From Anabaena lutea FACHB-196 (GTDB taxonomy: Bacteria; Cyanobacteriota; Cyanobacteriia; Cyanobacteriales; Nostocaceae): a stretch of 64,000 bases of DNA. Under the pieces are notes generated by a model. The model saw only the letters and a list, made by a program, of their open reading frames with translations. It did not search any database and was not told where the DNA came from. This document shows, piece by piece, positions 45,848 through 63,265 of the stretch. The translations under genes were made by a program, and so were the position numbers. The stretch is from the NCBI RefSeq assembly GCF_014698305.1, contig NZ_JACJST010000020.1, forward strand, positions 1 to 64,000, given 5' to 3'. Positions within the stretch are counted from its first letter, which is position 1. Each line of letters starts with the position of its first letter.

Positions 45848-46000
45848 TGTAGGATGACAGATGGATTGATAAATATCGGGATGAGCCGGGATGAGCCGGG
45901 ATGAGCCGGGATGAAGGGTTTGGGGCTTTTAGGCAATTTTCTCTAGTGACAGATGGTTTGATAAATGATGTCTCGTTAACGACAAATGATTTGATCAATA
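45848..46000. repeat. Predicted left transposon end with three transposase-binding-like sites
   Basis: Three related 20-bp sites lie at 45,855-45,874 (TGACAGATGGATTGATAAAT), 45,947-45,966 (TGACAGATGGTTTGATAAAT) and about 45,979-45,998 (ACGACAAATGATTTGATCAA). The outermost is preceded by TGT at 45,848, matching the TGT-N3-(A/G)TGACA(A/G)AT layout of Tn7/Mu-family ends. The last minus-strand gene stops 12-15 bp inside the third site, as expected near a terminus. Confidence 0.72.
45878..45917. repeat. 10-bp direct repeats GGGATGAGCC within the left end
   Basis: Three exact units (45,878-45,907) and a fourth variant GGGATGAAGG sit between the first and second terminal sites, with helical-turn spacing. 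Confidence 0.85.
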
Positions 46001-48403: not shown

Positions 48404-48839
48404 TCAAAAATACGAATGGAATTATAAACGGTTGCGTTTGCCCTGCGAATATAGTTACTGGCGTATCTTCGGATGCAAATCCCACTAACTTACCAGTTGT
48501 ATCGCCAATAGTGGAATTGGCATCGGCTAAAAGCACCATTGTTTGAAACTGAAAGGAACCGCTGCTATTTGCCTCAAAATTGACGTTCAAATTAGGAAAT
48601 TCATATCTTTTATTGGTTGGATTATAAGCACCTGTGGTAAACGCAACTGCTTGTCTGGCATAGCCGTTTACTGCGGGTAATTCCGCCGCAATTACATCAG
48701 CTATCTCCATGTCTCTAGAAATTGGCGTTGTGTCGCACAGAATTGTGTAAAACTTGGCGGGATCGGGTGGGGTTTCTCCCAGCGCCATTACCTCTCCAGC
48801 GTATTGTACCCACAAATCAAACAGCATTTTAGTTGCCAT
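48378..48839 (-). CDS. Tail-region virion protein, unknown
   Basis: The 153-residue product (MATKMLFDLWVQYAGEVMALG, later YEFPNLNVNFEANSSGSFQFQ and FAGQTQPFIIPFVFLNAG) is beta-rich with no known motif. It starts in a TAATG overlap with the stop of the 943-residue gene and ends inside the next gene, so it is part of the same translationally coupled minus-strand operon. The context suggests a tail or baseplate component. Confidence 0.65.
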   Translation of the reverse strand: MATKMLFDLWVQYAGEVMALGETPPDPAKFYTILCDTTPISRDMEIADVIAAELPAVNGYARQAVAFTTGAYNPTNKRYEFPNLNVNFEANSSGSFQFQTMVLLADANSTIGDTTGKLVGFASEDTPVTIFAGQTQPFIIPFVFLNAGYVSGT

Positions 48840-51670
48840 TACAATAAATAACTCCCTTCTTGCATGATATACGTACCTGAATCTGGGGTAAACACAAGAC
48901 TATTCCCAGATGTAAAACTTGATAGAAAATCAGTGTAAATTATTCCATCTCCTGATGTAATGAAATATTTAATCGTGTCCACTGGACAAGCTTCAGGAAT
49001 AACCATAATTGTACCATCGACAAATAAAACAACTTCCCATGCCAGAGGATCAAAATCAAAATTCTTGGTGTAGCCTTCAAACCGAATTGTAAATTTAGTT
49101 GTTTCTGCTTTCACAAAGCAGGCATACCATGCCCTGTCGCCTGGATAGATAAATATACCTCTTCCAGGAAAACTTCTAGTTATTGATGCAAAGTTTGTAC
49201 TGCTATATCCAAAAGTGACGTAGCTATTGCTTCCAATGTAAATATTGGTTCGGTAATTTATCCCATAAAATGGGAAATCAAATCCGATATCTCCTAAATC
49301 GATGCTTGAATCATCTTCGTAATCGAAAATAATTTGATCCATTCCAAAGCTGCCGTGAGGCGTAGCATTTGCATTACTAAAATAGGTTTTAATGTAATCA
49401 AAGCCCATTCCCAATCCAAACTCAGCAGTAATTGACTCTTTTATAGGTGGAATAGCTTCTGGATTGAAGCCTATTCCTAAGCCAAACTCAGCAATAATTG
49501 GATGAATTAATCGTGGATTGAAGCTTATTCCTAAGCCAAACTCAGCAATAATTGGCTCTTTTTCCAACGGGTAGCTGTATGAAGTTGCATCAAATCCTAT
49601 CCCCAAACCAAACTCCACAACAATTGGCTCTAGATAAGGCTTAATTAAATCTCCTTCGGGCGCAACACCTTCACTGATTTCGGGGTTATTTGTGTAAGTC
49701 CCTACCCAGACTCCATCACACGAGAATAAGGCGCGAGAGGCACTCAAACTCCAACTGCACCCATCCGCTAAATAAGCGTGGACTGTGCCATCTGGTTCTT
49801 TGCAATTGACCGGATAAAGTGGGTAATAATTGAATAAACAATCTTGCAAGTTTGTTGCTACTTGCTGTCCTTTATCCCTTCCCCTGAGCAGCCTTCCCTC
49901 TCGAAGTGCGATCGCCTTAAGTTGCTCTTTGGCTTCTCCCCCATCAGTTTCTATTGATGATACCTCGGTCGAACTTAGAATAGGTTGCAGTTTTCCCGCT
50001 AACATATCAACCGTAAATGTGCGTTCCCTGGGTTTGAGGTTGTTGGCACAACCATCACTAAACATCTGTTCCGCCTTAATTTGTTTCGATTCCGTCGTGC
50101 ATTCTGGGGGTCTTCTTTCTGTGGCGGGGGGCTGTTCTTGCCCGGAATTGCTAGAGCGCCTGACATTATTCTCTGGATTGGGAATCAAATTTAACTTATT
50201 ACTAATAACCTCTGAACCCTCTTGGTACTTGACCAAATCCTTGTTCACCTTTACGAGTGCTTTTTGAGAGGAAGAGCTATATTCCCAAGTATTCCTATTA
50301 ATTTGCTTCCATTTTTGAGTAATTTTTTCGGATGGGACTAAAACCTCAGGTGGCAGTCCTGCGTATGCGTCCCAGTTTTCATCAGAGCCATTGAGAATTA
50401 CTATATTTATTTCTTGGGTATTAGAAATGATTTTCTCAATAATATTTTTATCGGTATAAATAAAATTTTCAATAATTTTTTTAACTAAAACTGGGCTATA
50501 TATCCCGAAAAATATTGCGTCTGGACGTGCGTCTTTTACTTCGCTTAAATACGTTGCACGAGGTTGATAAATTTCTGTAATTTTATTGATTAATTTACCT
50601 TCTTTACCCCCTTCAAATTTTGAAGTTTCAATAGATATTTCTGCGGTTATCAATCCCGATAAAGGCGATAAGACAAAACCGCTTGGTGTCTTATTCCAGA
50701 AGGTCTCTGGCACAACTAGCCCGAACGGCCTTTTGGTTGTTGTTGTGACTGTTTTTGCTTTACTAGCAGCATCCCAGTCTTCGATTTTTTGAACCGATTC
50801 TATAACAATAGGAAAATCTTCGTAATCCTTGCTCACGGATGATGCTGTACCGATTATTTCTGAATAATCAGAAAGCGTTGCGGGTGTAGGGGTAACTAAA
50901 ATTTCATCGCCTGCCGCGATAACTTTTTCTACTGGTGCTTCGGCTCCGTCCAGGCGTTTGTAGTAGAGTTCATTTTCACCAACTACGATAGCGACTCCAC
51001 CCCCACCACCTACTATATTGGCTTGTCTAACACGGAAAACTTCAAATCGGTCAATCCATCCAAAGCAGTTATTGGCGTACAAAATTTTACCCACTGCTTC
51101 CAAGTAGCTGCCAGATAAATTTAGAGGGTAATTGTAGCGAGTTGTGGGAAGTGCGCCGGAATCGACAGAGGTAATTCCGGCTTCAGCTAATAACAAAATT
51201 GACACCTGTCCGGCAGTTTTGCCTTCTACTGACTTGTTGTCGGCTTTGTCCGGATCAGTTGGTTCCTTGAAATTTAACAGCCCGATTAAATCGCTTAATT
51301 CTAAGGTCAACCGTTTAGTTTCGTCGTCATAGGTTGATTTGAGAATTCGCAGCGCGCCTCTAGGATGTCGTTGTAATTCCAAAGATGTATCTGAATAATT
51401 GATGATTACTGGCACGCCGCGACAGAAGCGGGTAGGGTTTTTGCGATCGTCTAAACTTTCGTCATAGGTATAAACATATTCCCATTCTTGGGCTGCCTCG
51501 TTCCACACCTGTGCATCTGACATTGCTCTGCCAAGTACCATTGTGCCAGAGAAGCTGATCAGCCCGGATTGATCAAGGTGATTATCACTGCCTAAGCAAG
51601 ATATCAGGCAGTCTGAGAAGTCTTTGCCACCGATGAATACTTGGGTTTTCCGGGCTGATAGGTTGAGCAT
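48839..51670 (-). CDS. Tail hub/spike-like protein with repeated EFGLGIGF segments
   Basis: A 943-residue protein. The N-terminal 220 residues (QVFIGGKDFSDCLISCLG, GALRILKSTYD, AGQVSILLLAEAGI) look like the hub region of a phage tail. A Cys-rich middle follows, then four tandem copies of an (I/V)xEFGLG(I/M)(G/S)F segment within about 75 residues, and a C-terminal beta domain (IGFDFPFYGINYRTNIYIG ... SYVTFG) of the NIDO-like adhesin type, a candidate host-binding head. ATG directly follows the preceding stop with an AGGAG site 7 bp upstream. Function is inferred from position and repeats. Confidence 0.68.
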   Translation of the reverse strand: MLNLSARKTQVFIGGKDFSDCLISCLGSDNHLDQSGLISFSGTMVLGRAMSDAQVWNEAAQEWEYVYTYDESLDDRKNPTRFCRGVPVIINYSDTSLELQRHPRGALRILKSTYDDETKRLTLELSDLIGLLNFKEPTDPDKADNKSVEGKTAGQVSILLLAEAGITSVDSGALPTTRYNYPLNLSGSYLEAVGKILYANNCFGWIDRFEVFRVRQANIVGGGGGVAIVVGENELYYKRLDGAEAPVEKVIAAGDEILVTPTPATLSDYSEIIGTASSVSKDYEDFPIVIESVQKIEDWDAASKAKTVTTTTKRPFGLVVPETFWNKTPSGFVLSPLSGLITAEISIETSKFEGGKEGKLINKITEIYQPRATYLSEVKDARPDAIFFGIYSPVLVKKIIENFIYTDKNIIEKIISNTQEINIVILNGSDENWDAYAGLPPEVLVPSEKITQKWKQINRNTWEYSSSSQKALVKVNKDLVKYQEGSEVISNKLNLIPNPENNVRRSSNSGQEQPPATERRPPECTTESKQIKAEQMFSDGCANNLKPRERTFTVDMLAGKLQPILSSTEVSSIETDGGEAKEQLKAIALREGRLLRGRDKGQQVATNLQDCLFNYYPLYPVNCKEPDGTVHAYLADGCSWSLSASRALFSCDGVWVGTYTNNPEISEGVAPEGDLIKPYLEPIVVEFGLGIGFDATSYSYPLEKEPIIAEFGLGISFNPRLIHPIIAEFGLGIGFNPEAIPPIKESITAEFGLGMGFDYIKTYFSNANATPHGSFGMDQIIFDYEDDSSIDLGDIGFDFPFYGINYRTNIYIGSNSYVTFGYSSTNFASITRSFPGRGIFIYPGDRAWYACFVKAETTKFTIRFEGYTKNFDFDPLAWEVVLFVDGTIMVIPEACPVDTIKYFITSGDGIIYTDFLSSFTSGNSLVFTPDSGTYIMQEGSYLL

Positions 51671-52132
51671 CTAAATCTCCTGAAGTGTGAAGGAGACTGC
51701 ATTATGGATGCCTTGCTCATCTATTTCTGGTGATTGAATAATAAAAGTTTGGAATTTGGCGAAATATTTAATTTGATTATTGCTAATTGTAGTTTCGGTG
51801 GAGCCTGCTGCAAGCGGCCTGGTTCTAGGAGCGTGTTCAACAAATGAGAGGGTGTTGTCTGTTAGGGTTATGAGTGGCCCGGTTAGATTTCTGCGGTTGT
51901 AATCCGATTCCGAGTATATAGCTTGAAGGATATCGGTTTCTTCTAGGTCGAGGCTTGCGTTGATCGACCACAAAAATTTTATGGGAAATATCGGCCCATC
52001 TAGAATAGATGAGCCATTTGCTGAATATTCGATTGAGGGTAGTGGGCCAATCCTGCCTCTGGGGAATCTTGGCGAAAGGAATTTGGTGATTTTTAATTCC
52101 AAATCGTTAACCGTCAGAATTAATCCGCTCAT
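51671..52132 (-). CDS. Tail-region virion protein, unknown
   Basis: A 153-residue protein (ILTVNDLELKITKFLSPRFPRG, FLWSINASLDLEETDILQAIY) without recognised motifs. It heads the minus-strand structural operon, and its stop codon is adjacent to the next gene's start. Proteins of this size before a hub gene are often distal tail or tail-completion proteins, so that role is possible but unproven. Confidence 0.65.
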   Translation of the reverse strand: MSGLILTVNDLELKITKFLSPRFPRGRIGPLPSIEYSANGSSILDGPIFPIKFLWSINASLDLEETDILQAIYSESDYNRRNLTGPLITLTDNTLSFVEHAPRTRPLAAGSTETTISNNQIKYFAKFQTFIIQSPEIDEQGIHNAVSFTLQEI

Positions 52133-52181
52133 TTTGAAGTCAAAGATAATGTTTGTTTACGGATTAAATGTTTGTTTGAGG

Positions 52182-52481
52182 CTACTGTTTGCCACCGTGC
52201 TGTGCGATGCCTTTGCCTTCTATTTGCTCGACTTTAGTTTGCAGCCGGGCTATTTGATTTTCTTGGAGTTGCAGCCTTGCGTAGGAAGCATCTAATTTGA
52301 GTTCGATTGCTTCACCTTGCTTTGTTAAACTTTTTATATTTTCCTCGGATCTTGTGACCGCAATGCTTGTAGCAGTCACAAGCTGGGCTATGTAAATAAT
52401 ACAGGCAATGGCGAGACTATTTATACCTATGCTTATACTGGAAAGCAGTTTATTTTCTTGGGGCTTGAATTGATCGGTCAT
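52182..52481 (-). CDS. Membrane/coiled-coil protein (holin- or XhlA-like)
   Basis: A 99-residue protein with one hydrophobic segment (about residues 15-40, INSLAIACIIYIAQLVTAT) followed by a long coiled coil rich in E, K and Q (LKLDASYARLQLQENQIARL). Small phage proteins with this layout include XhlA-type lysis accessory proteins and spanin-like factors. No endolysin gene is adjacent in this window. It could also be a tail chaperone. Only the membrane-coiled-coil layout is certain. Confidence 0.6.
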   Translation of the reverse strand: MTDQFKPQENKLLSSISIGINSLAIACIIYIAQLVTATSIAVTRSEENIKSLTKQGEAIELKLDASYARLQLQENQIARLQTKVEQIEGKGIAQHGGKQ

Positions 52482-52568
52482 TTTTTTTTGCGGGTTTCAG
52501 AACTTCTTTATATCTAGCTGAGTTGTGCATTGGCTTTCAGGGTGGTTAGGTGTTCTAAACTAGAATAT

Positions 52569-52582
52569 AGTACAAATGTGCT
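52569..52582. promoter_or_regulatory. LexA-box-like dyad upstream of the small plus-strand gene
   Basis: AGTACAAATGTGCT lies in the divergent gap between the late minus-strand operon and the plus-strand gene at 52,622. It differs by one position from the cyanobacterial LexA consensus RGTACNNNDGTWCB. A similar half-site (AGTACAGACGTATT, 52,991-53,004) precedes the next gene. Confidence 0.45.
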
Positions 52583-52621
52583 ATAAATGGATTGAGTTAA
52601 TCTACAAACAGGAATTTAACT

Positions 52622-52912
52622 ATGGTCACTACTTCTGAAGCTTTGGTGCAGCAGGCAGATTTATTGGAAAAGGTTGCTAGTGTGATTCTTGACTTGATCC
52701 AGAATGCCAATGCTAATGCACGCGATAGGGCTGAAGCCGAAGCTAAAATTGCTGAGTTCATTGCAGCAGATGAGGCAAATGCTGTGACTGTAGGAACAGG
52801 AAATACAAAGCTTCAAGAGTTGCTTAATGTGGCGACTGCTGCTATCTTGCCATCCAGCGAAGACATTGCACCTCCTATTGCGCCTCCTTCTGTTGATGGT
52901 GAACTAGGCTAA
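52622..52912 (+). CDS. Small acidic alpha-helical protein, unknown
   Basis: The 96-residue product is rich in Ala, Glu and Asp (LVQQADLLEKVASVILDLIQ, ARDRAEAEAKIAEFIAADE), with a proline-rich tail (IAPPIAPPSVDG). It is probably helical and soluble. It resembles small phage-encoded proteins of unknown role. A terminator follows, so it is transcribed alone. It starts at an ATG with an AGGAATTTAACT leader. Confidence 0.6.
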   Translation: MVTTSEALVQQADLLEKVASVILDLIQNANANARDRAEAEAKIAEFIAADEANAVTVGTGNTKLQELLNVATAAILPSSEDIAPPIAPPSVDGELG

Positions 52913-52946
52913 CTATTGGCGATACACTTTTGACCTGTATTCTTTG

Positions 52947-52970
52947 CCCTCCTAGAGAGGGTATTTTTTT
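52947..52970 (+). terminator. Rho-independent terminator
   Basis: CCCTC (52,947-52,951) pairs with GAGGG (52,957-52,961) around the loop CTAGA, followed by TATTTTTTT. Confidence 0.8.
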
Positions 52971-53039
52971 GTCCTAAAGTATACTATTTTAGTACAGACG
53001 TATTATTGATATAGTTTGAAATTGTAATTACAGATGCTT

Positions 53040-53056
53040 GCCCTCTTAATGAGGGC
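53040..53056 (+). promoter_or_regulatory. Hairpin that includes the Shine-Dalgarno of the next gene
   Basis: GCCCTC and GAGGGC form a 6-bp stem with loop TTAAT. The right arm GAGGG is the only Shine-Dalgarno candidate for the ATG at 53,067 (about 11 bp downstream), so the stem could mask it. Confidence 0.5.
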
Positions 53057-53066
53057 ATTTCTATGA

Positions 53067-53504
53067 ATGGATTTATCAAGTAAGAGTATGCTGGAGCAAT
53101 TTCGGAGTTTGTACCCCACCGGCTGTTTAATTTCTGAGGTTGCTCAGATTTTTAAAACTGAGTTTGTGGTTCGTGTGAGTATAGTTGTTGATGGTGTTAC
53201 TCGTGCCACAGGGTTGGCAATGGATGTTCAAGTTGCTTTGGCAGAGGATAAAGCTAGGGCTAGGGCATTGGCGGTTGTGGACATACCTAAACCAGTTGCG
53301 CCTACTCAGATAGCTAAGGTTGTTGATTTATCTGATTTGATAGCGCTGACTGATGTCCACATGGGGCGGCTTGGGTGGACGGCTGCATATGGTCAAAATC
53401 ATTTGATGAATATTTATGGAAAGCGTGCGAGAAGACTTTTGTCTCAGGAAGAGCTAGAGCATTTCCTGGAGTTTCTCAAAGCGCAGCCCGATGTTGCTGT
53501 GTGA
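53067..53504 (+). CDS. Unknown protein with ssDNA-annealing-like features
   Basis: The 145 residues contain VVRVSIVVDGVTRATGLAMD and EDKARARALAVV, a pattern reminiscent of Rad52/Erf-type annealing proteins or related cyanobacterial phage proteins, then LTDVHMGRLGWTAAYGQNHL and the C-terminal EELEHFLEFLKAQP, seen in recombination-associated proteins. The resemblance is weak; a DNA-binding or recombination role is only a suggestion. It lies in the plus-strand group between the structural genes and the repeat arrays. An internal start at residue 8 is possible. Confidence 0.5.
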   Translation: MDLSSKSMLEQFRSLYPTGCLISEVAQIFKTEFVVRVSIVVDGVTRATGLAMDVQVALAEDKARARALAVVDIPKPVAPTQIAKVVDLSDLIALTDVHMGRLGWTAAYGQNHLMNIYGKRARRLLSQEELEHFLEFLKAQPDVAV

Positions 53505-53521
53505 ATTAGGATTAACGGGAT

Positions 53522-53671
53522 ATGAAGAGAAAGAAGGTTAAATGGGCTGTTTGGTGTCCAGGTGGGAAGAATCACTGGAAAACTTTTTTTGAAAACTGTC
53601 ATGTAGAGGCTTGGCATAAAGCTAAAAAATTATCTGGCGGGTTGCCTTTTAGACTTTTTCCTGTTGAATAG
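53522..53671 (+). CDS. Small basic protein (49 residues)
   Basis: The reading frame from ATG at 53,522 to TAG at 53,669-53,671 encodes a 49-residue basic protein (MKRKKVKWAVWCPGGKNHWK and onward, with Trp and Cys). Coding-like composition and a position 17 bp after the previous stop suggest a real gene in the same transcript. Function unknown. Confidence 0.45.
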   Translation: MKRKKVKWAVWCPGGKNHWKTFFENCHVEAWHKAKKLSGGLPFRLFPVE

Positions 53672-53720
53672 GTAATTCAGTAGGGCTGAGTAAACAGTTA
53701 AGCGTTCATTGTAGGTAGTT

Positions 53721-53936
53721 ATGGAATTAATTTATTTGCTTGGAATTATAGTTGTGTCCGTAAGTCTTTTGATTCGGATGTTGCTATATTGTCTTGGTAT
53801 TTGGGCTTTATTTCATTTTAAAATTCTGGATGCGATCGCTTTTGTAGCTATTTCAGAATTTATTCGGATTTTGATGAGTTTGATTGTGGATAAAACCAAG
53901 GTTAACGAGGATGAAGGATATACGGGAAATGAATGA
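53721..53936 (+). CDS. Small membrane protein
   Basis: The 71 residues are dominated by two hydrophobic stretches (LIYLLGIIVVSVSLLIRMLL and a second at about residues 35-57). A possible role as a small phage membrane factor cannot be confirmed. It ends inside the start of the next gene. Confidence 0.5.
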   Translation: MELIYLLGIIVVSVSLLIRMLLYCLGIWALFHFKILDAIAFVAISEFIRILMSLIVDKTKVNEDEGYTGNE

Positions 53937-54177
53937 GTCTAAAGGCTTACTGGAGTCTATTCGCAAGGAACGGGAACGTCTAGCCCAAAATAATCAGGTT
54001 CCTGTAGATGATTTACGAATATTGGTATTCACTAGTTTTAGTTGCAATATGATTTCTGAAGGTAGAGCCTGTCAATTGCTTTGTACCAACAGAATTGATT
54101 TTAGGCTTGAGTGGCTCCAGTGGCTTGAAAGTCATCCGCATATGGAGAAAATCTCAGATAGCTTGGATATTTACTGA
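53929..54177 (+). CDS. Small soluble protein, unknown
   Basis: From the ATG at 53,929 (overlapping the previous gene's TGA) the 82-residue product reads MNESKGLLESIRKERERLAQ, with a charged helical N-terminus and a C-terminal EWLQWLESHPHMEKI. An in-frame ATG at 53,911 is an alternative start. AAGGA lies 10 bp upstream. No family is recognised. Confidence 0.5.
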   Translation: MNESKGLLESIRKERERLAQNNQVPVDDLRILVFTSFSCNMISEGRACQLLCTNRIDFRLEWLQWLESHPHMEKISDSLDIY

Positions 54178-54317
54178 TTTCACTTGTAGGAGTGCAGACT
54201 TAAGCTTGATCTGATTGTGGTTTATCTGGATTTTAGTAGGTTAAGTGTTTTTGCTGATGATGGTGGTTGTATCGTTGTTTTGGGATTAATTAGTATGTCT
54301 GTAATTAATTCCAAGCA

Positions 54318-54674
54318 ATGTTTAGATTTTTGAGTTTTGGACTATGCTCGATTACTGTGTTTGCAGGTTCTGCTGCTGGACAGGTGACCCTTAATCGTGG
54401 TTTTGAAAGGGCGCTTCGTGTTGGTGGTTATGATACTGCTATTGGTGATAGTTTGATTTGCTATGCTGAGACTAATACTGCCAGCACTTTTGATTTGAGT
54501 CGGTTGTGTGGAATTGTTCCGGCTCGTTCGTCGGGGAATGATGGTTATACGGGTTCTGGTAGTGGTTATTCTGGCGGGGGGTCTGATGGAGTTTGCAACT
54601 TCCCTGATGATATTGCTCGTGACGGCAGTCGTTGCGGCGGACGCGCCAGAAGTGAGAAGCCTGGAGGAAGGTAA
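54318..54674 (+). CDS. Secreted protein with C-terminal Cys-motif
   Basis: A signal peptide (FRFLSFGLCSITVFAGSAAG) precedes a short mature protein with a Gly/Ser-rich linker (GYTGSGSGYSGGGSDG) and a C-terminal CNFPDDIARDGSRCGGRAR. This CxxPxDxAxDGSRCGGRA motif is typical of small secreted cyanobacterial proteins of unknown role. Inside the prophage it could be a cargo gene. Confidence 0.6.
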   Translation: MFRFLSFGLCSITVFAGSAAGQVTLNRGFERALRVGGYDTAIGDSLICYAETNTASTFDLSRLCGIVPARSSGNDGYTGSGSGYSGGGSDGVCNFPDDIARDGSRCGGRARSEKPGGR

Positions 54675-54704
54675 TAGCCGATAATTTTTAGCTAAGTCGG
54701 AACT

Positions 54705-54738
54705 AACTCGGAACTGAAACATGAATCAGTTCCGAGTT
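54705..54738. repeat. Perfect 13-bp inverted repeat
   Basis: AACTCGGAACTGA (54,705-54,717) and TCAGTTCCGAGTT (54,726-54,738) pair perfectly around an 8-base loop. Two array-type units (CTAAGTCGGAA, CTAACTCGGAA; 54,692-54,713) run into the left arm. It lacks a T-tract, so it is either a hairpin or a binding site rather than a standard terminator. Confidence 0.75.
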
Positions 54739-54769
54739 CTAGGATACTTGATTAGCAAGGGTTTTAGAA

Positions 54770-54835
54770 CTAAGTCGGAACTAAGTCGGAACTAAGTCGG
54801 AACTAAGTCGGAACTAAGTCGGAACTAAGTCGGAA
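54770..54835. repeat. Array A: six 11-bp direct repeats CTAAGTCGGAA
   Basis: Six exact, contiguous units. The 11-bp period places units on one face of the helix, as in iteron or operator arrays. It lies upstream of the unknown plus-strand gene at 55,066. Confidence 0.92.
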
Positions 54836-54880
54836 CTAGTTCACACTTCCCGAAATCCTTATTCAATAAAGACTTTAGAC

Positions 54881-54957
54881 TTAAGTTTGAACTAAGTTTG
54901 AACTAAGTTTGAACTAAGTTTGAACTAAGTTTGAACTAAGTTTGAACTAAGTTTGAA
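54881..54957. repeat. Array B: seven 11-bp direct repeats CTAAGTTTGAA
   Basis: Seven units (the first TTAAGTTTGAA, six exact), separated from array A by 45 bp. The unit differs from array A at only two bases of the core (CG versus TT), so both arrays derive from one motif that was then homogenised separately. Confidence 0.92.
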
Positions 54958-55065
54958 CTTGGCTCCTTTGAGCGTAAATACGCTTGGCGTTTAAATTCTA
55001 ACCGTGTTAATATCTTTACATATTGTGAGTATCCATCCGTAGACATATATAAGTTGATTTTTTCT

Positions 55066-55812
55066 ATGCATCTTGAATCAATTTTTACAGAGCAGGTGGT
55101 TAATACCATTACCGCAAAATCTAAATGTGAATATCTAAAACTATGCAATATTTATTTTGAGCAGAGAAAATCGGAATTGTGCTTGGTCATAGATTGCCCC
55201 GGCGATGTCATCGATAAAGTTTGGGAATACAAACATAAAATTTTATCTGCGGCTTTCTTGCTTGGATTCAACAAAAAGTTGATACTAAAAAGAGAGGGAA
55301 GTATTTATGCTTCTGCTTCTTCTCGATTTAGTATTGAAGAAGTCAAGGAAGGACTTATGCATCTATCAGCAGAAACAATCACTAAAGGATTAGTATTTAA
55401 TGATTTACTTTTGTTTGTTGCTAATTCCCAGTATCCTACATTCGTTACAGAAGTACCAAGGAATTGGCACTGGGGGCAGCCGCAGCGACTCGTTTTAACA
55501 AATTCTCAAGTTACTAATTTTTCGGGTGTAAAGTCAACTAAGCTGCATGGTGAAGATATGACATTACTGTATGATCGCGTCATATTTGAGCGTCAGATGT
55601 CCATACTCACGCGTGAATTTGAAAAATCGCCCAAAGAGAATATTGTTAAGGATTACGCATATACTTCATACACCATTGACAAATTCCGACAAAGTTTATG
55701 CCGAGATTCAGAGCATGAATATAATGCTGATTTTAAAATGATTTACATAGAGGACTTGGATATGATTGCACGCGTTTGTTGTTGCAAAGATCGACGGCCT
55801 GTCAATTCTTAG
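55066..55812 (+). CDS. Unknown protein downstream of 11-bp repeat arrays
   Basis: A protein of about 248 residues that I do not recognise. It starts at ATG 55,066 (a TTG at 55,054 is possible), 108 bp after array B. It contains LCLVIDCPGDVIDKVWEYK and AAFLLGFNKKLILKREGSIY in the first third, a central VPRNWHWGQPQRLVLTNSQ, and a C-terminal ARVCCCKDRRPVN tail. There is no Walker, HTH or DDE motif. It is convergent with the repressor (11-bp overlap of 3' ends). Its position right behind the arrays makes it a candidate replication or partition factor or an array-binding regulator; this is inference. Confidence 0.65.
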   Translation: MHLESIFTEQVVNTITAKSKCEYLKLCNIYFEQRKSELCLVIDCPGDVIDKVWEYKHKILSAAFLLGFNKKLILKREGSIYASASSRFSIEEVKEGLMHLSAETITKGLVFNDLLLFVANSQYPTFVTEVPRNWHWGQPQRLVLTNSQVTNFSGVKSTKLHGEDMTLLYDRVIFERQMSILTREFEKSPKENIVKDYAYTSYTIDKFRQSLCRDSEHEYNADFKMIYIEDLDMIARVCCCKDRRPVNS

Positions 55813-56488
55813 CTCCATCAAGCTCATCTATCTTAAACCCCTGCCGTTGATTACTGCTGGGGTTTTTTTGTTCTAAGAAAGCCATGATCCATTCACTCTC
55901 TGTATGAGCCTCTTCATCTATATCAAGTAGAACCCTGATTTGTCTAAGTTCATCCTCGGTGACATCATTGACTAAGCCTTTTTGAATTTGCATGAATCTG
56001 TTGATGGTCATAGACGCAGTTTTGTTTTGCACCATAGACAATAGCTCCGTCTCTATATCTGATTCTGATAAATTATTTTTAGTTATAGTCGATTCTATGA
56101 TTTCTTGTAAATTCATAATATTTTCCTGAAAAAAATCCTTTGTCGCCACATAGGCAAGTTCAGTCCAGTCGCTGTAAGTAGAATTTTTGTCAATGTAAAT
56201 TTTGTCTGCAAAGCTCACTGGTTTGTATATCAGTGGTGCAATTGCTTTGAGAATCTTGTCTTCCGGCTTTGTAATTTTGGCATTTATATATTTACTAGCT
56301 GTGGATGGAGCTATATCTGCTTGTTTGGCAAATGTTCTTAGTGACCATTTTCTTGCTTTTAAAGTTGCTTGTATTAATATGCTTAACCGCTTTATCCCCT
56401 CTGCGGTGTAGTTGAAATGCTTTTCTTCCAAAGGCTCGAACAAGAAGATCTGCGATTTTACTGGATATTCTGTTGCGGTTGTCAGCAT
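55802..56488 (-). CDS. HTH repressor (c-like)
   Basis: A protein of about 228 residues with an N-terminal Xre/Cro-type helix-turn-helix: WSLRTFAKQADIAPSTASKYI (about residues 45-65, within the first quarter), followed by an alpha-helical C-terminal domain rich in acidic residues. It is transcribed away from the transposase operon and so occupies the Mu c-repressor position. It probably silences the early operon by binding operators in the divergent gap. Start is ATG at 56,488 or GTG at 56,494. Confidence 0.78.
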   Translation of the reverse strand: MLTTATEYPVKSQIFLFEPLEEKHFNYTAEGIKRLSILIQATLKARKWSLRTFAKQADIAPSTASKYINAKITKPEDKILKAIAPLIYKPVSFADKIYIDKNSTYSDWTELAYVATKDFFQENIMNLQEIIESTITKNNLSESDIETELLSMVQNKTASMTINRFMQIQKGLVNDVTEDELRQIRVLLDIDEEAHTESEWIMAFLEQKNPSSNQRQGFKIDELDGAKN

Positions 56489-56547
56489 TATCACGTGGTG
56501 TTTCCTTTGTTCCTGGCTAATTTAACAATAACTCAAAATCGTTTTTC

Positions 56548-56562
56548 TGTACCTCTTGTACA
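56548..56562. promoter_or_regulatory. Operator candidate: dyad TGTACCTCTTGTACA
   Basis: A perfect 5-bp inverted repeat (TGTAC/GTACA) with a 5-bp spacer in the gap between the divergent repressor and early operon. Its position is that of a repressor operator. Confidence 0.55.
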
Positions 56563-56591
56563 TTTTTTCTTTTGATGCTAGATTACTAAAA

Positions 56592-56618
56592 ACACCGCGA
56601 ACACCGCGAACACCGCGA
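56592..56618. repeat. Three 9-bp direct repeats ACACCGCGA
   Basis: Three exact units end four bases before the ATG of the small early gene at 56,622, so they overlap its translation start region; no Shine-Dalgarno is visible there. Confidence 0.85.
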
Positions 56619-56621
56619 ACG

Positions 56622-56807
56622 ATGAAGCTAGTAAGACCAGGTATTGACCCAAGTGTCTATGACCAGGTTCGTCTGGGAGCAGCGCTTGAGAAAATTTCGA
56701 CTCGCAAATTTATTGAGTCGTCAATTTTGGAAAAAGTAGCTAAATCCATTGGTTCCAATCAAGAAAATAAACGAGGGGAACCATGTGGATTGGAACCTCA
56801 GAATTAG
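56622..56807 (+). CDS. Small Ner/RHH-like early regulator
   Basis: From the ATG at 56,622 a 61-residue protein (MKLVRPGIDPSVYDQVRLGA, then STRKFIESSILEKVAKSIG). The second half has the look of a ribbon-helix-helix domain. A small DNA-binding protein between repressor and transposase corresponds to Ner in Mu by position. Its end overlaps the transposase gene by 25 bp. Function inferred. Confidence 0.55.
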   Translation: MKLVRPGIDPSVYDQVRLGAALEKISTRKFIESSILEKVAKSIGSNQENKRGEPCGLEPQN

Positions 56808-58960
56808 TCGGACTGCCTGGATTACCAGGATCTAAAAAGGGGCTTATAAAAAAAGCCCAGAAAGAAAACTGGCAATGGCGCGATCGCAATCAGCGAGGTG
56901 GAGGGAAGGAATATCATATATCCTCGCTTCCCCCACAAGCCCAGGCGTATCTACTTCAACAGGCAAAACCAGATCAACAGCATTCCCACCCGGAATCTGA
57001 GAACGAGGAATTGCTAATTACCCAATCCCCATTACCCATTCAGATGCCAACTGAAACCCTGGTAACGGCGATTATTCCATCTCAGCAAAGAGCAAGCGAA
57101 ACATCAACCGACGGCAGGATTAATGCCAAAGTTGAAATCTTGCGTGTTCTTGAGCAGTTCTGTGAAGAAAGACAGTTAAAAAAAATCTCCTGTCATCACG
57201 TTTTTGCAGACTCCTACAACACCGGAAAGATTCAAGTGTCGGAACAAACCAGAAGGCAGATCCCTTCTGTATCTTTCCCGACCTTGCAGCGGTGGTATAA
57301 AGCTCTGCAAGAAGGGAGTGTTCAGTCACTTGGGGGGAAATATGGAAATCGTGCTGGACAGACAAAAATAGACACAAATCCTAAAATCAGGGATTTTGTC
57401 TTAGCGATGCTGACACGCTTCCCTCACGCAACCGGAGGGCATATACTTTCGGCTCTCCAAGCACGATTTGAGGATGAAATTTTACCTTCTCAAAGAACTA
57501 TATCCCGGTGGATAGAAGGTTGGAAAAACGAGAATAAGGAATTATTCACAGCCATATCCAACCCTGATGATTGGAAGAACAAATTCATGACTGCCTTTGG
57601 CAGTTATTCCGAGGATGTAGTTCGCCTGAATCAGCGATGGGAAATGGATTCTACCTCGGCTGACATCATGCTCGAAGATGGGCGCTATCACTTGATTAGC
57701 TGCATTGATGTCTTTTCGCGCAGGATGAAACTGTTGGTTGTTCCAACTTCTAAAGCTACTGCGATCGCGGTTTTGGTAAGAAAATGCTTGCTGGACTGGG
57801 GTGTCCCAGAAGAGGTGAAAACCGACAACGGCAAGGATTATACAGCAAATTACTTAGAACGTGTATTTAGGGATTTAGGTATTAGACAGAAGCTCTGCAT
57901 ACCTTTCCATCCTTGGCAAAAGCCGCACGTTGAAAGAGGCTTCCGAAGCTTTCTCCATGATTTATTAGAGTTGCTCGATGGTTACATTGGACACAATGTA
58001 GCTGAACGTCAGGCTTTGAGAGCCAGGATTTCTTTTGCTGACAGGCTAACGACAAAAACTGAAGAGATCAGCATGAAAATGACTGCATCTGAATTTCAAG
58101 CTTTTTGTGACACCTGGACTAACCAAATCTATGCCAATAAACCTCATGAGGGGTTGGATGGTAAAACGCCATTTCAAGTTTTTACCGCCTGGCGCAGCAA
58201 TACTAAGTCCATCGATAATGAACGGATTTTGGATGTTCTCTTGGCTGAAGCACCGGGTGCAAATGGGCTACGGACTGTGCAGAAACGTGGCATTCAACTT
58301 GAAGGAACTTTCTTTATTGCTCCTGAGTTGGAAGCCTGGATTGGACAAACTGTGCAAGTCCGGTTTGATCCGCTGGACTTGGGTAAAATCTACGTTTTTG
58401 ACGGTGATTTTAAGCTTATCTGCATTGCTGAAGATCCAGTCCGAACCGGTATGAATCGGCAAGAGGTTGCAGTTCGGGCTAAACATCTACAACAGAAGCG
58501 GATTCACGAAGGTAAGCGGGCGCTGAAGCAAATCGCCAAAAAGGTGAATGTGGCTGAGGCAGTGGAGGATATCCTCCAGGAAGCTGAGGCCAATAACAAC
58601 GTGGTGGCTTTTCCTGCACCCAAGGAAATTCATACATCTAGAGGCTTGGAATCTGCGGCTGAAGTAGTAGCAGCACTTAAGCCGAAAGAATACGCACCGA
58701 TGACTGCTGAGGAATTGGCAGAAGCTGACGCGGCTTTGAGTCGAATTGAGCAGCCAGAAGTAGAAATAGTGCGGGATGAAGATCATTTCTGTCGGCTGTG
58801 GAAGCAGGTAAATGCTGGGGCATTTATTGCTAACCGTGATTGGCAGTGGATGAAGCATTACGCTACCACCCCAGAAGGCAGGGGCGTACTGCGATTTTTG
58901 GATGTTACTGAGATTGATTTCTCCAGCTTTATGAACGAGCGGGAGGCGAAAATTTCGTGA
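56783..58960 (+). CDS. MuA-type DDE transposase
   Basis: The 725-residue protein begins with a Mu-type winged-helix DNA-binding domain (TSELVGLPGLPGSKKGLIKK, with WQWRDRNQRGGGKEYH). The rve/DDE core has D289 in MDST, D348 in TDNGKDY and E384 in HVERGF, with 35 residues between the second D and E. A Mu_transpos_C beta-barrel follows (GIQLEGTFFIAPELEAWIGQ). It should cut and join element ends for integration and replicative transposition. ATG at 56,783 has GAGG upstream. The DDE triad and C-terminal domain are intact. Confidence 0.93.
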   Translation: MWIGTSELVGLPGLPGSKKGLIKKAQKENWQWRDRNQRGGGKEYHISSLPPQAQAYLLQQAKPDQQHSHPESENEELLITQSPLPIQMPTETLVTAIIPSQQRASETSTDGRINAKVEILRVLEQFCEERQLKKISCHHVFADSYNTGKIQVSEQTRRQIPSVSFPTLQRWYKALQEGSVQSLGGKYGNRAGQTKIDTNPKIRDFVLAMLTRFPHATGGHILSALQARFEDEILPSQRTISRWIEGWKNENKELFTAISNPDDWKNKFMTAFGSYSEDVVRLNQRWEMDSTSADIMLEDGRYHLISCIDVFSRRMKLLVVPTSKATAIAVLVRKCLLDWGVPEEVKTDNGKDYTANYLERVFRDLGIRQKLCIPFHPWQKPHVERGFRSFLHDLLELLDGYIGHNVAERQALRARISFADRLTTKTEEISMKMTASEFQAFCDTWTNQIYANKPHEGLDGKTPFQVFTAWRSNTKSIDNERILDVLLAEAPGANGLRTVQKRGIQLEGTFFIAPELEAWIGQTVQVRFDPLDLGKIYVFDGDFKLICIAEDPVRTGMNRQEVAVRAKHLQQKRIHEGKRALKQIAKKVNVAEAVEDILQEAEANNNVVAFPAPKEIHTSRGLESAAEVVAALKPKEYAPMTAEELAEADAALSRIEQPEVEIVRDEDHFCRLWKQVNAGAFIANRDWQWMKHYATTPEGRGVLRFLDVTEIDFSSFMNEREAKIS

Positions 58961-59175
58961 CTGACGAGGAAATGCTTAACCTCACTGACGCAGATAGGTG
59001 GAATCCTAAACATTTTGGTGAACCACCACCATTTTTACAGGACGGCGATCAACTAACTATCTTTTTTGATCGCAGAGAGGAGCCACCACTACCTGAAGAA
59101 TTTTTGAATTTAGAGCAATTTAATGAGGCTTGGAAATTATGGATGGAAAAGTTCCCGCACCTAGCAGCGACATAG
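58957..59175 (+). CDS. Small protein of the transposition operon, unknown
   Basis: A 72-residue acidic protein (WNPKHFGEPPPFLQDGDQLT ... FNEAWKLWMEKFPHLAAT) starting at a GTG overlapping the transposase stop (GTGA), so it is translationally coupled. GGGAGG lies upstream. No motif recognised. Confidence 0.6.
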   Translation: MTDEEMLNLTDADRWNPKHFGEPPPFLQDGDQLTIFFDRREEPPLPEEFLNLEQFNEAWKLWMEKFPHLAAT

Positions 59176-59417
59176 TAAATGTCTACGATTTGTTGGCCCT
59201 TTTGGCTGGTGAAGGGTATTCCAGGGAAACGGCAATTGAACACATAAAAATCTTAATGGAAGTATCCCGCAGCCCTTATATTTCTACGGATTTGAAACGG
59301 GCTATCGGTTTTGTTCAAAGCTTTACTTTCAGCCTTTCAAATCTGAGTCCTAACCAGATGACTGAGTTGGTTGATGTTATCGAAAAACAGAGAAAGGCTT
59401 TAGCAGAAGGTTTTTGA
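59139..59417 (+). CDS. Small helical protein, unknown
   Basis: A 92-residue product from ATG 59,139 (MDGKVPAPSSDIVNVYDLLA), overlapping the previous gene by 37 bp. It is largely helical with hydrophobic SFTFSLSNLSPNQMTELVDV. A TTG nine bases upstream is an alternative start. No family is recognised. Confidence 0.55.
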   Translation: MDGKVPAPSSDIVNVYDLLALLAGEGYSRETAIEHIKILMEVSRSPYISTDLKRAIGFVQSFTFSLSNLSPNQMTELVDVIEKQRKALAEGF

Positions 59418-59418
59418 C

Positions 59419-59802
59419 ATGAAGGATTCTGCGCTTGTTTCACTTTGCTGGTTAACCGCCCAAGACAAACACCTAATCGAGTATTTATTGGACAACGAAT
59501 TTTGGCATCATCAAACTCATTTTTCATCTTACTCGGAAGAAGATCAGCTTTGGTGGTACACCGATATTTGTGAAATTGGAACCTACAAATTAGGAATTTT
59601 AGAAGATGAGTGCGAATACGGTGAAGACGATGAAGAGTTATCTGGGTATGTGATTAGCATCATCATCAACGGGGTTGAATTGCTGACTGATGGTACTTTT
59701 TCGTGGGGATTAAGACTACGTCAAGTTGAGCTAGAAGTCAAAGAATTTCTTCGGACTTATGAGCTTGAAAGTTCATTTCACAAGCAATTGTCTTTTTGTT
59801 AA
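59419..59802 (+). CDS. Acidic protein, unknown
   Basis: A 127-residue protein, one base after the previous gene. It is strongly acidic and aromatic (FWHHQTHFSSYSEEDQLWWY, ECEYGEDDEELSGYV). An acidic aromatic surface may mimic DNA or bind a basic partner, but this is speculative. Confidence 0.6.
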   Translation: MKDSALVSLCWLTAQDKHLIEYLLDNEFWHHQTHFSSYSEEDQLWWYTDICEIGTYKLGILEDECEYGEDDEELSGYVISIIINGVELLTDGTFSWGLRLRQVELEVKEFLRTYELESSFHKQLSFC

Positions 59803-59869
59803 TAGCATTCCCTGAAGTAGGAGTACAAGCCTTTCTAGGGATGAGTAGGGTAATAAATTTGGAGGCAAA

Positions 59870-60085
59870 ATGTCAGATCCTCGTTTAGTGAAATACGTGA
59901 TTTTCGACAAGGTAAAACGTCTTTACCTGTCTAGAAATGGGATTGGTTTTGGATGGTCATTCCATCGAGTTAATGCGGCTCGCTTGAATTCTGAACAGGC
60001 AGTATTTTGGACAAATCAACTCATCCAAATCAATCAACGCAGAGGATTTGTAGTACAGGAGGTAGGTAATGCTAGAGCAGTCTAG
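59870..60085 (+). CDS. Small protein, unknown
   Basis: A 71-residue product (VKYVIFDKVKRLYLSRNGIG) with a strong GGAGG site upstream. It overlaps the next gene by 17 bp. No family recognised. Confidence 0.6.
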   Translation: MSDPRLVKYVIFDKVKRLYLSRNGIGFGWSFHRVNAARLNSEQAVFWTNQLIQINQRRGFVVQEVGNARAV

Positions 60086-60371
60086 CCCCACACCTGAACA
60101 ACGGGAAGAGTACGTCAGGCGATACCGGGAATTGGCGCAGGGCTATCACTACGATTACTCAAATTCCAGGCTTGAGGAGTTGGTTAAGTCTCCGAATTGG
60201 AGCGACATCCAGAAACTACTAACTCCATCAGCTAGAAAAGCCTGTAAAAGCTATTTCCGTTATATAGGCGATCGCAGCTTTGGCTGTCTCGATATGGAGA
60301 TAAAGACTTGGGAGGCACTGGTAGAGAGCATCCAAGTAGCACAGAAGAAGCTCTCTAAGTGCAAAAAGTAA
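60069..60371 (+). CDS. Small helical protein, unknown
   Basis: A 100-residue basic/acidic helical protein (EQREEYVRRYRELAQGYHYD) with an excellent AGGAGG site inside the previous gene. The short overlap suggests coupled translation. It precedes the intergenic hairpin and the ATPase gene. Confidence 0.6.
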   Translation: MLEQSSPTPEQREEYVRRYRELAQGYHYDYSNSRLEELVKSPNWSDIQKLLTPSARKACKSYFRYIGDRSFGCLDMEIKTWEALVESIQVAQKKLSKCKK

Positions 60372-60376
60372 AAGTT

Positions 60377-60408
60377 TTGGTAGTTGAGATTGCTCTCTCA
60401 ACTACCAA
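60377..60408. promoter_or_regulatory. Perfect 13-bp hairpin upstream of the MuB-like gene
   Basis: TTGGTAGTTGAGA pairs perfectly with TCTCAACTACCAA around a 6-base loop. It lies in the 66-bp leader of the ATPase gene. No T-tract follows on the plus strand, so it may be a processing site, pause signal or translational regulator rather than a terminator. Confidence 0.65.
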
Positions 60409-60437
60409 CGAAACAAAACTCTCTAGGATTGTACACG

Positions 60438-61145
60438 ATGAAAAATCAATTAGCAAAAGTCAAGAATATCCGCAAGCTGTCACAGGCGTATGAATCGCTG
60501 GCGCAACGAGATATCAACATTCCCCGAATGGGTTTAATTAGCGGTTTCTCAGGGGCTGGGAAGAGTCAAGCCATTGGTTGGCTTATTTCTCAGGTTGATG
60601 GGGTTCTGGTACGAGCCAACGCTTGCTGGACTGTGAGTTCAATGCTGGCGGCGATTGTGGTTGAGATAGGCACTACTCCTGTCAGTCGGAATGCGCTGAT
60701 GCTGAAGCAGATTGTAGATAGCCTCGCAGCCAGTCGCAGACCTTTAATTATTGACGAGTGCGATTATCTGCTACGTGATCCGCGTATGGTGGAAACCCTG
60801 CGAGACATTCATGATTTAGCGGGTGTGCCGGTGATCATGGTGGGCATGGAGGGCATAGAGAAAAAATTGGCCCACCGCAAGCAATTATCACGCCGAATCT
60901 CACAATTTATTGAGTTTGCACCTTTGGATTTGGAAGATGCTGAAACTCTGGCGGAAACAGTATGTGAAGTGGCTGTAGCGCCGGATTTGCTACAAAAAAT
61001 CCACAAGGATGCTAGGGGCAGCATTGGACTGATGATCGTGGGTTTAGCTCAGGTTGAAGCACTAGCCAAGACTCAACAGTGGAACGTGATTAATTGCCAG
61101 CAGTGGGGCAATCGCAAATTATTTTTATCGGCAAAGGTGGGGTAA
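60438..61145 (+). CDS. MuB-like AAA ATPase, transposition target selector
   Basis: From ATG 60,438 (AGGA nine bases upstream; an in-frame TTG at 60,384 is unlikely) the 235-residue protein has Walker A GFSGAGKS (residues 36-43) and Walker B PLIIDECDYLL (D106-E107), with MVGMEGIEKKL and RRISQFIEFAPLD downstream. MuB-type ATPases form filaments on target DNA and deliver it to the transposase. Length is close to the AAA core only. Together with the MuA-type transposase it completes the transposition core. Confidence 0.88.
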   Translation: MKNQLAKVKNIRKLSQAYESLAQRDINIPRMGLISGFSGAGKSQAIGWLISQVDGVLVRANACWTVSSMLAAIVVEIGTTPVSRNALMLKQIVDSLAASRRPLIIDECDYLLRDPRMVETLRDIHDLAGVPVIMVGMEGIEKKLAHRKQLSRRISQFIEFAPLDLEDAETLAETVCEVAVAPDLLQKIHKDARGSIGLMIVGLAQVEALAKTQQWNVINCQQWGNRKLFLSAKVG

Positions 61146-61147
61146 TT

Positions 61148-61408
61148 ATGATGCCAGCGATTTTGCGTAGGTACGAAATCAGCTTGATTGATGCAATTGA
61201 TGCATTAATTACAAAATTAATGACTTGGGAAGATGGGCAATTTTCAGCTTCTGAGGTGAGTTTGAGCCGTAGAGAAGCTCAGGAGATTGCAGCTTGGGTA
61301 ATTAATAGTGCAGCAGATCCCTTTGGATTTTGTGGTGCGAGTTTGAATGGGGATAGATTGCTAGAGCTTCTGCGAAATATTCGGGAGGAAGGCAATGATT
61401 CAGTTTGA
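61148..61408 (+). CDS. Small protein downstream of the ATPase, unknown
   Basis: From ATG 61,148 (GGTGGGG upstream), immediately after the ATPase stop, the 86-residue product reads MMPAILRRYEISLIDAIDAL and later FGFCGASLNGDRLLELL. A longer frame exists from TTG at 61,094 but overlaps the ATPase. Helical, no motif recognised. Confidence 0.55.
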   Translation: MMPAILRRYEISLIDAIDALITKLMTWEDGQFSASEVSLSRREAQEIAAWVINSAADPFGFCGASLNGDRLLELLRNIREEGNDSV

Positions 61409-61718
61409 ACAAATGTGGTCAAAAATTCGGAGACTTGAGGTTTTCTGTTTGCACGAATTAGCTGAGTTTTGTGATTTTGAGGTTTCAATTCCGCTACTGG
61501 CAGCTTATATTTTGGCTCTAACAGAGAGCGGGTATCTGGTGGAGTTGTCGGGGAAACGAACCCATAGGCGATATCGGTTAGTACGGGATTTGGGACAATT
61601 TGCACCGATATTGCGTGAATCAGTTCCTATTCGAGTAATGGGGCGATTAGTTCAGGTTCAGTACGCGATGTACGACCCCAATGAAGATTTTTATTTTCCA
61701 CTTATTAAGGAGGATTAA
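61395..61718 (+). CDS. Winged-helix-like protein
   Basis: A 107-residue protein (FCLHELAEFCDFEVSIPLLA, ILALTESGYLVELSGKRTHR, RYRLV) with the arrangement of a winged helix: helix, helix, then a hairpin. GAGGAAGG lies before ATG, which overlaps the previous gene. A DNA-binding regulator is likely but unproven. Confidence 0.6.
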   Translation: MIQFEQMWSKIRRLEVFCLHELAEFCDFEVSIPLLAAYILALTESGYLVELSGKRTHRRYRLVRDLGQFAPILRESVPIRVMGRLVQVQYAMYDPNEDFYFPLIKED

Positions 61719-62459
61719 ATGGTGGAATTGGAAGATTGGAAGGAAGTTTTATTGCAGGAAGTTAGTAGATCTAATCAATATCATGTTGCGATGAAGCTGG
61801 GGGTTTCACCTGCAATGATATCTAAAGTGATTCAAGGTAATTACAATACGCAAGCCAGTAAATTACCTTTGTTGGTCAAGTCTCGCTTGAAGCCTCAAAC
61901 TATGAGCCATGAAGAATCAGAATGGCTAGAAAGGCTAAAATACATTTGCTCGATTTACCGAGTTCGAGATGTTGCAAAAATCTTAGATTTCTCGGCTTCT
62001 TACCTGTATATGGTTACCGCAGATAAGATAAAAACAAATTCGTATAATCTCAAGATTGAGGTTATGGCGAAGTTGTATGACGATGAAATCTTGAAAAACT
62101 TAAAGCTTCGGCCAAAAGCTGTTAAAAAAAAATCAGCAATTAAGGTAACTGAGGATTTAACTGTTGCAGTAGCTGATGCTATCTATTGCAATGGGATAGC
62201 TTCTTACGATGACTTAATTGAAAAGTTTCCGCGACATGGCTTGAGTCGAAGTTTAAGCATCCTTGAAAAGATGGGGGCTATTAATGTTATTAAGCCATCT
62301 TTAATAGGGCGCGGTAAAGGGACGCTTCCGAGAAGTAAGTACGGCATCGCTTGCAAGTGTTCGGCTCCGGGGAATACCGATAGATGCGCTGAATGCCCTC
62401 TGGGGAAGATGATTATATCTGTATGTGGCTTGGACGATGATGGAGAGGAGTTTGACTGA
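61719..62459 (+). CDS. Multi-HTH regulator with C-terminal zinc-binding cysteines
   Basis: The 246 residues contain an N-terminal Cro-like HTH (YHVAMKLGVSPAMISKVIQG), a second HTH-like segment (RVRDVAKILDFSASYLYMV), a C-terminal winged-helix-like segment (SYDDLIEKFPRHGLSRSLSI), and a four-cysteine cluster (CKC ... CAEC near residues 218-232) suited to bind zinc. A textbook AAGGAGG-type site precedes ATG. In Mu-like phages regulators between the early and middle genes activate later transcription, so this may be such a switch protein (inference). Confidence 0.68.
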   Translation: MVELEDWKEVLLQEVSRSNQYHVAMKLGVSPAMISKVIQGNYNTQASKLPLLVKSRLKPQTMSHEESEWLERLKYICSIYRVRDVAKILDFSASYLYMVTADKIKTNSYNLKIEVMAKLYDDEILKNLKLRPKAVKKKSAIKVTEDLTVAVADAIYCNGIASYDDLIEKFPRHGLSRSLSILEKMGAINVIKPSLIGRGKGTLPRSKYGIACKCSAPGNTDRCAECPLGKMIISVCGLDDDGEEFD

Positions 62460-63250: not shown

Positions 63251-63265
63251 TAGTATGGAGGAAGA

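Follow-up and report, generated by a model that had tools for sequence, protein, structure and literature searches.

A recurrent 11-bp repeat array linked to a clade of Mu-like cyanophages, most likely a protein-binding control element

Positions 54692–54957 of the window (the whole 64,000-nucleotide stretch of Anabaena lutea FACHB-196 analysed here) hold an array of 11-bp direct repeats that recurs in related prophages, is linked to one clade of them, and most likely serves Mu-like cyanophages as a control element to which protein binds. Related viruses carry their own version of it in a similar place, so that a role as a protein docking strip is more probable than random repetition. To our knowledge, regulation and transpososome assembly are hardly known for the transposable phages of cyanobacteria, unlike those of phage Mu, and a literature search, with most subscription journals outside its coverage, found no description of such arrays. 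Being compact, variable and tied to MuA, the array gives a direct handle on whether it acts on transposition, immunity or inheritance.

Anatomy of the array and its prophage

The array is built from a single motif family in three blocks, “A,” “B” and “C,” of head-to-tail 11-bp units. Block A (54692..54713, plus strand) contains two units, CTAAGTCGGAA and, as a one-mismatch copy at 54703, CTAACTCGGAA; it has a counterpart in the related phage record L036 (103-bp match, 89%). Block B (54770..54835, plus strand) consists of six CTAAGTCGGAA units at an 11-bp period, giving seven exact copies in the window: one at 54692 and six in tandem. Block C (54881..54957, plus strand) has seven (C/T)TAAGTTTGAA units at the same period, of which six are exact copies of CTAAGTTTGAA and one, at 54881, is TTAAGTTTGAA. 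The second unit of block A starts 67 bp before block B, and the spacing from block B to block C is 56 bp. In addition, a direct unit faces an inverted unit in a perfect 13-bp inverted repeat with an 8-nt loop (54705..54738; arms at 54705–54717 and 54726–54738), and a comparable 13-nt arrangement can be seen by eye in the viral contig L096. The six- and seven-unit arrays and the inverted repeat had been described in a sequence-only reading, and exact counts, Tandem Repeats Finder (TRF) and shuffles bear them out; one small correction to that reading is the short third block at 54692–54713, the first unit of which is an exact CTAAGTCGGAA.

The TRF scores of the window arrays are 144 and 156, against a top score of 71 at any period, and a median maximum of 38, in 200 dinucleotide shuffles of window positions 45849–64000. 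The exact two-unit pattern CTAAGTYKGAACTAAGTYKGAA occurs ten times in the 6.06-Mb assembly, all ten at the array locus. The array is non-coding: stops interrupt all six frames, which rejects a coding repeat, and 11-bp units do not preserve a reading frame of triplets. An Rfam scan of 54000–57000 gave no structured-RNA match, and a promoter read by eye at ≈54984–55012 was unsupported by a consensus scan. We also rejected the array as an att end, since the prophage ends bear GACARATGGWTTGATAAAT-type sites unrelated to it.

The surrounding element is a 45,000-bp MuA-type prophage running from 45848 to contig position 90847, with its right end beyond the window, and flanked by a 5-bp target duplication, GCCTG. 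Three MuA-type sites lie inside each end. Those of the left end, TGTAGGATGACAG (45848..45999, plus strand), are at 45856, 45948 and 45981, while the right end reads ...CGCCTTACA up to contig position 90847. In three of the four other genomes of the genus (G365, G309 and G389) the two flanks of the insert that contains the prophage are close together, with sequence ending at 45652–45656 placed near sequence from ≈90960; the fourth matches the left flank only. The flanks were named by eye as the dnaG side (left) and the ureG side (right). Between the first two left-end sites are 10-bp repeats, CGGGATGAGC, at 45877–45914; G-rich 10-bp repeats (GGGATAAGCC) also occur near the left side of L096, and similar 10-bp steps are visible by eye at the left ends of the prophages in G309 (L049), G330 and Kastovskya adunca, a cyanobacterium of the same order.

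Situated 8.8 kb inward of the left prophage end, the array is 3′ of a cI-like repressor gene (55802..56494, minus strand; 230 aa; HTH_3, E 1.5e-5). Between the two is a gene for a 252-aa protein (55054..55812, plus strand) that matches no family and gives a poor structure model (mean pLDDT 51). Beyond the repressor, 9-bp repeats of a motif unlike the array, AACACCGCG (3.3 copies; 56591..56621, plus strand), are found just 5′ of the gene for a small 61-aa protein at the ner position (56622..56807, plus strand), and related repeats were seen in G330 and Kastovskya. There follow the MuA-type transposase with an N-terminal Mu DNA-binding domain (56783..58960, plus strand; PF02316 7e-13, rve 7.4e-15, Mu-transpos_C 4.2e-16, phrog_310 2.3e-109) and a MuB/TniB-like AAA protein (60384..61145, plus strand; family searches). 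MuA, the MuB-like AAA protein, the end sites and the 5-bp duplication uphold the earlier view that a Mu-like prophage carries an array resembling protein sites, with a single family of motifs.

Two further features of the prophage were observed. A minus-strand block at 46265–52132 holds unannotated genes, relatives of which are on the right arm in G330 and Kastovskya; in the window prophage these genes thus seem to occupy the opposite side of the early region. MuA-end-like sites are also found internally, at contig positions 64409 and 71064 of the window prophage, at 13502 and 22029 of the phage record L033, at 17901 and 27171 of L036, and in the G309 region, and in the window prophage and L033 they precede homologous genes (window-prophage ORFs 64982 and 71162).

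Recurrence and architecture in related prophages

Relatives were reached by two search routes. With the 252-aa protein as query, six of 388 genomes of the order matched, own genome included, and the matches led to arrays upstream of the homologues in G330, G178 and Kastovskya (7-bp units); G081 and G120 gave partial or weak matches and had no such array. The second route used MuA as query. In all, nine loci were found with MuA at least 43% identical to that of the window: the window itself, L036, L033, two in G309, and one each in G530, G330, G178 and Kastovskya (the last counted once despite several records, and the window's own viral record left out of the count). An 11-bp array of related units is present in eight of these nine, window included, as the sequence-only reading had suggested looking for, while in Kastovskya, the one left over, the repeats are 7-bp GGAACTT units instead. 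L036 (MuA identity to the window 67%), L033 (65%), the main G309 prophage (64%) and G530 (62%) all carry 11-bp arrays beside a different, shorter repressor. The second G309 prophage (L119) is decayed and has lost the repressor and most of MuA: here ≈16 units are flanked by a fragment of MuA and, opposite it, by a ParA-like gene, and a 348-aa remote relative of the 252-aa protein is encoded ≈0.6 kb from the array. Copy number ranges from ≈3 to 16 among loci.

Below this level of identity arrays become rare. The high-GC loci L082, L083 and L084 (MuA 42%) have no 11-bp array, and among 15 loci with MuA at or below 39%, a clear array was seen in L096 and a degenerate one in G098; for five of the 15, L096 included, the upstream sequence available was shorter than 2 kb. 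L096, with a MuA identity of 30%, was found by the motif pattern itself and not by the MuA search; its array overlaps the 3′ end of the repressor gene. G098 combines a degenerate 11/22-bp array with a 7-bp GGGAACT array.

The arrays are independent of the 252-aa gene, of the repressor type and of the gene before MuA. A full-length 252-aa gene is found in four of the nine loci with MuA at least 43% identical, and a full-length homologue is missing from five of the eight array-bearing loci: L036 and G530 have none, and the matches in the L033 record and both G309 loci are remote, over 128–131 residues. The repressors are of at least three kinds (230–253 aa, 111–112 aa and 79 aa) while the array persists, and the ner-position gene is of several kinds among array-bearing loci. 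MuA is the only window ORF (of at least 60 aa) that matches in all seven comparators; the MuB-like gene is missing from the decayed G330. Separately, proteins at L018 (G081) and L119:12847-13893 resemble part of the 252-aa family, with a different second half that looks PAS-like by eye.

The placement of the array is also shared. It is 3′ of the repressor in seven of the eight loci with 11-bp arrays, the exception being the second G309 locus with its lost repressor, and in L036, L033, G309, G530 and L096 the 3′ end of the repressor gene touches the array, runs into it or is separated from it by just a few bases. In all four prophages whose left end was located by end-site matches, the array is between the left end and the repressor, at a distance of ≈1.8 kb in G330, 3.1 kb in G309, 8.8 kb in the window and 11.7 kb in Kastovskya, as if cargo genes had been inserted to the left of the array. 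The units are related and non-identical (TAAGTCGGAAC, TAAGTTTGAAC, TAAGTTGGACG, TAACTCGGACG, TAAGTCGGGCG and YAAGRTSGAAC), with TAAGAGGAATG the most divergent among the relatives. In the window, L036, L033, G309 and the second G309 locus, the short block on the left has its final unit starting 66–67 bp before the long array; the spacer sequence is common to L036, L033 and G309, and that of the window looks different by eye. Spacings near multiples of the 11-bp period fit phased binding, in what are very few independent cases, and the main G309 array mixes 10- and 12-bp steps.

What the array may do

By analogy with phage Mu, we tentatively read the array as an operator- or enhancer-like array for a DNA-binding protein, perhaps the N-terminal domain of MuA or a regulator that competes with it. 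The array would then be a cis-acting element of the early-control region, next to the repressor gene, and its several blocks would offer 11-bp sites in helical phase for the cooperative assembly of a DNA-binding protein that the phage itself most likely encodes. With MuA bound through its N-terminal domain, or with a competing regulator in its place, the array could promote or gate both the building of the end-synapsis complex and the choice between lysis and lysogeny.

The operator/transpositional enhancer of Mu (O1–O2, IAS) is likewise an internal, non-end, multi-site element near the repressor gene of a MuA-type phage, and the window prophage shares with Mu the MuA transposase, the MuA-type ends and a matching N-terminal domain on the transposase. 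The Mu enhancer is ≈1 kb from the left end, whereas the cyanophage array is ≈1.8–11.7 kb from it in the four prophages measured; the Mu record, with the repressor at 339–863 and ner from 1099, is consistent with the Mu figure. The Mu enhancer is placed between repressor and ner, but the cyanophage array is on the far side of the repressor. Unlike Mu, in which positions 840–1110 read by eye contain no such tandem array, the cyanophage element has long perfect 11-bp arrays. Moreover, the sites of the Mu enhancer are shared with the early operator, while the array motif is absent between 56494 and 56622 of the window at up to two mismatches or at a PWM score of 8.5 bits. Since that interval of the window has its own 9-bp repeats, and the repressor–ner interval of L033 has TGGAAA/TTTCCA elements (by eye), neither the repressor nor the ner-position gene has the array motif as an obvious operator.

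For an enhancer speaks the Mu N-terminal DNA-binding domain retained by the window transposase; it is this domain of the transposase that binds the enhancer in Mu (PMC3362531, PMC5977238; further facts on the Mu enhancer are in PMC3820752). The recurrence of arrays among loci with MuA at least 43% identical, their persistence while repressors and ner-position genes change, the matches of MuA in all seven comparators, and the array of L096 at a MuA identity of 30% also speak for it. Other observations count against this reading. Loci with MuA at or below 42% show no 11-bp array, L096 and G098 excepted, and yet the MuA match starts within the first 15 residues in 11 of 12 aligned loci of this group, so that the presence of the domain does not predict an array. 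By labels assigned by eye, arrays go together with a small ribbon-helix-helix-like gene as well, which would point to another binder, and short arrays of the motif occur in viral contigs unlike this clade. A broader evolutionary version, in which a transposable cyanophage lineage moved its transposase-binding enhancer off the repressor operator into a self-standing, expandable array, with copy number and unit sequence evolving fast, block spacing and helical phase kept, and ParA perhaps joining in some members, is doubtful in our judgement.

Two side observations concern the Mu-type DNA-binding domain. In G330 (L015:2948-3448) it is fused to the ner-position protein, as seen with Pfam, and at L032:187-576 a minus-strand 129-aa protein matches MuA residues 2–62; from its sequence, the latter is perhaps a Mu-c-like repressor.

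Somewhat unlikely is that the array is the operator of the small ribbon-helix-helix-like protein at the ner position and serves lysogeny control. Ribbon-helix-helix proteins commonly bind tandem direct repeats. An array is present in nine of ten loci with a ribbon-helix-helix-like ner-position gene and in one of 12 without (Fisher p 0.0003), with the labels assigned by eye, the Kastovskya 7-bp and G098 degenerate arrays counted, and L119, L034, L062, L063 and L084 left out; because the loci are related, the test overstates significance. The ner-position protein of L096 is RHH by Pfam (RHH_1 above cut-off), but Pfam clearly backs this fold in just one of the eight so-labelled proteins scanned. 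The window protein, ribbon-helix-helix-like by eye alone, is unsupported in the Pfam scan, and its structure model is a single helix of low confidence (mean pLDDT 64.6); its gene, moreover, is preceded by the 9-bp repeats of another motif. Gene and array also part company in both directions: the main G309 prophage has an array and an XRE protein at the ner position, and G081 has a ribbon-helix-helix-like gene and no array. A precedent for the repeat length comes from plasmid R1, the ParR protein of which requires at least two 11-bp repeats (PMC9426499).

That the array is a functionless tandem-repeat expansion, a microsatellite grown by slippage, we consider unlikely. Its wide copy-number variation, from ≈3 to 16, and the internal homogenisation of its blocks would suit slippage, as would a host region rich in short tandem repeats (nine 7-bp TRF rows in the window) and the 7-bp arrays that Kastovskya and G098 carry at the array position, instead or additionally. 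Like the cyanobacterial heptamer repeats (STRR), the array has short tandem units; unlike these genome-dispersed 7-bp repeats, it has an 11-bp unit and a similar position among prophages, and its two-unit pattern is confined to a single locus of its genome. Diverged prophages, furthermore, have related units in a similar place with the 66–67 bp block spacing, and such repeats are scarce elsewhere: over ten sequences (345,585 bases) there are only three other TRF rows with a period of 10–12 and a score of at least 50 (in L036, G309 and G330, scores 50–54), plus two left-side 10-bp repeats (window and L096). The sequence-only reading had held that arrays lacking the adjacent gene in many unrelated loci would mark them as ordinary microsatellites; arrays without that gene do exist in related prophages, but these keep their place beside the repressor and so do not resemble ordinary microsatellites.

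A partition (centromere) or replication-iteron site, the resemblance first noted from the sequence, is quite unlikely; we rank partition low because the window prophage shows no ParA match and the ParA loci of two Nostoc plasmids have no motif array within 4 kb. Theta-plasmid iterons combine tandem direct repeats with an inverted copy, as does the array, but this is a MuA prophage, and no Rep family was found among the ten window proteins scanned. The clusters of 11-bp repeats recall parC of plasmid R1, which is described as clustered 11-bp direct repeats (PMC9426499), and a ParA-like ATPase with an HSDR_N-like N-terminus adjoins the array in the second G309 locus (L119:14835-16193) and in G530. 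In L090, a viral contig outside the clade, a ParA-like gene is likewise ≈0.9 kb away from 11-bp repeats with the motif. A search of the window prophage for this type of ParA, however, gave no match at E ≤ 1e-6, nor was there a motor ATPase with a centromere-binding family among the scanned neighbours; the two ParA matches of the genome itself are on other contigs and are 35% and 43% identical over parts. No ParA match was seen in G178 or in the L033, L036 and Kastovskya phage records, which may be fragments. A DNA search with the array gave no plasmid match and only insignificant phage matches (E 3), and a transposing prophage is inherited along with the chromosome.

The same ParA-like ATPase with an HSDR_N-like N-terminus is phage cargo at L119:14835-16193 and L079, and is also encoded on two Nostoc plasmids. 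The plasmid proteins are of the same type (62% and 54%), with a Rho-N-domain gene behind and no motif array within 4 kb. Weak 11-bp repeats of another sequence do occur upstream of these ParA genes of Nostoc sp. UHCC 0870 (L138:3808-3836 and L137:2165-2211), with 2.6 copies ≈165 bp away on one plasmid and 4.2 imperfect copies at 1.8 kb on the other; at TRF scores of 37 and 43, respectively, against the shuffle median of 38, we take them as near chance.

Least probable is that the neighbouring 252-aa protein regulates its own gene through the array. In favour of this, the array is ≈0.1 kb upstream of that gene in the window and likewise upstream of the homologues in G330, G178 and Kastovskya, and the remote 348-aa relative is near it in the second G309 locus. 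But L036, L033, both G309 loci and G530 keep their arrays although none has a full-length homologue, and G081 has a partial relative (35% over 82 residues) and no array. The protein is thus rejected as a general partner of the array, and the link with the adjacent gene once proposed is not supported.

The motif beyond this clade

A motif scan of viral contigs returned 16 stretches, four of them in phages already described (L036, L033, L096 and that of the window). The remaining 12 do not resemble this clade and have 2–5 units, some with inverted copies and some being near-duplicates of one another; a second motif pattern matched two stretches. In the genomes of the order the first pattern matched two of 368, the window genome and G309, a figure that is no survey of arrays, as the pattern misses the units of G330, G178 and Kastovskya. 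The off-clade arrays are near primase-polymerase, PhoH or ParA-like genes (Pfam), and also near terminase- or ribonucleotide-reductase-like genes (by eye). The motif is thus not private to MuA phages, and any claim of a phage-specific binder is weakened; outside the clade it may be recognised by some kind of protein that is widespread, or may represent several look-alikes. In three of these contigs, L089, L097 and L100, 11-bp arrays of the motif are near GGGGTATATATACCCC-like palindromes and a primase-polymerase gene, and an omega/56B-like RHH protein is encoded nearby in L089 (weak Pfam match; L097 95% identical).
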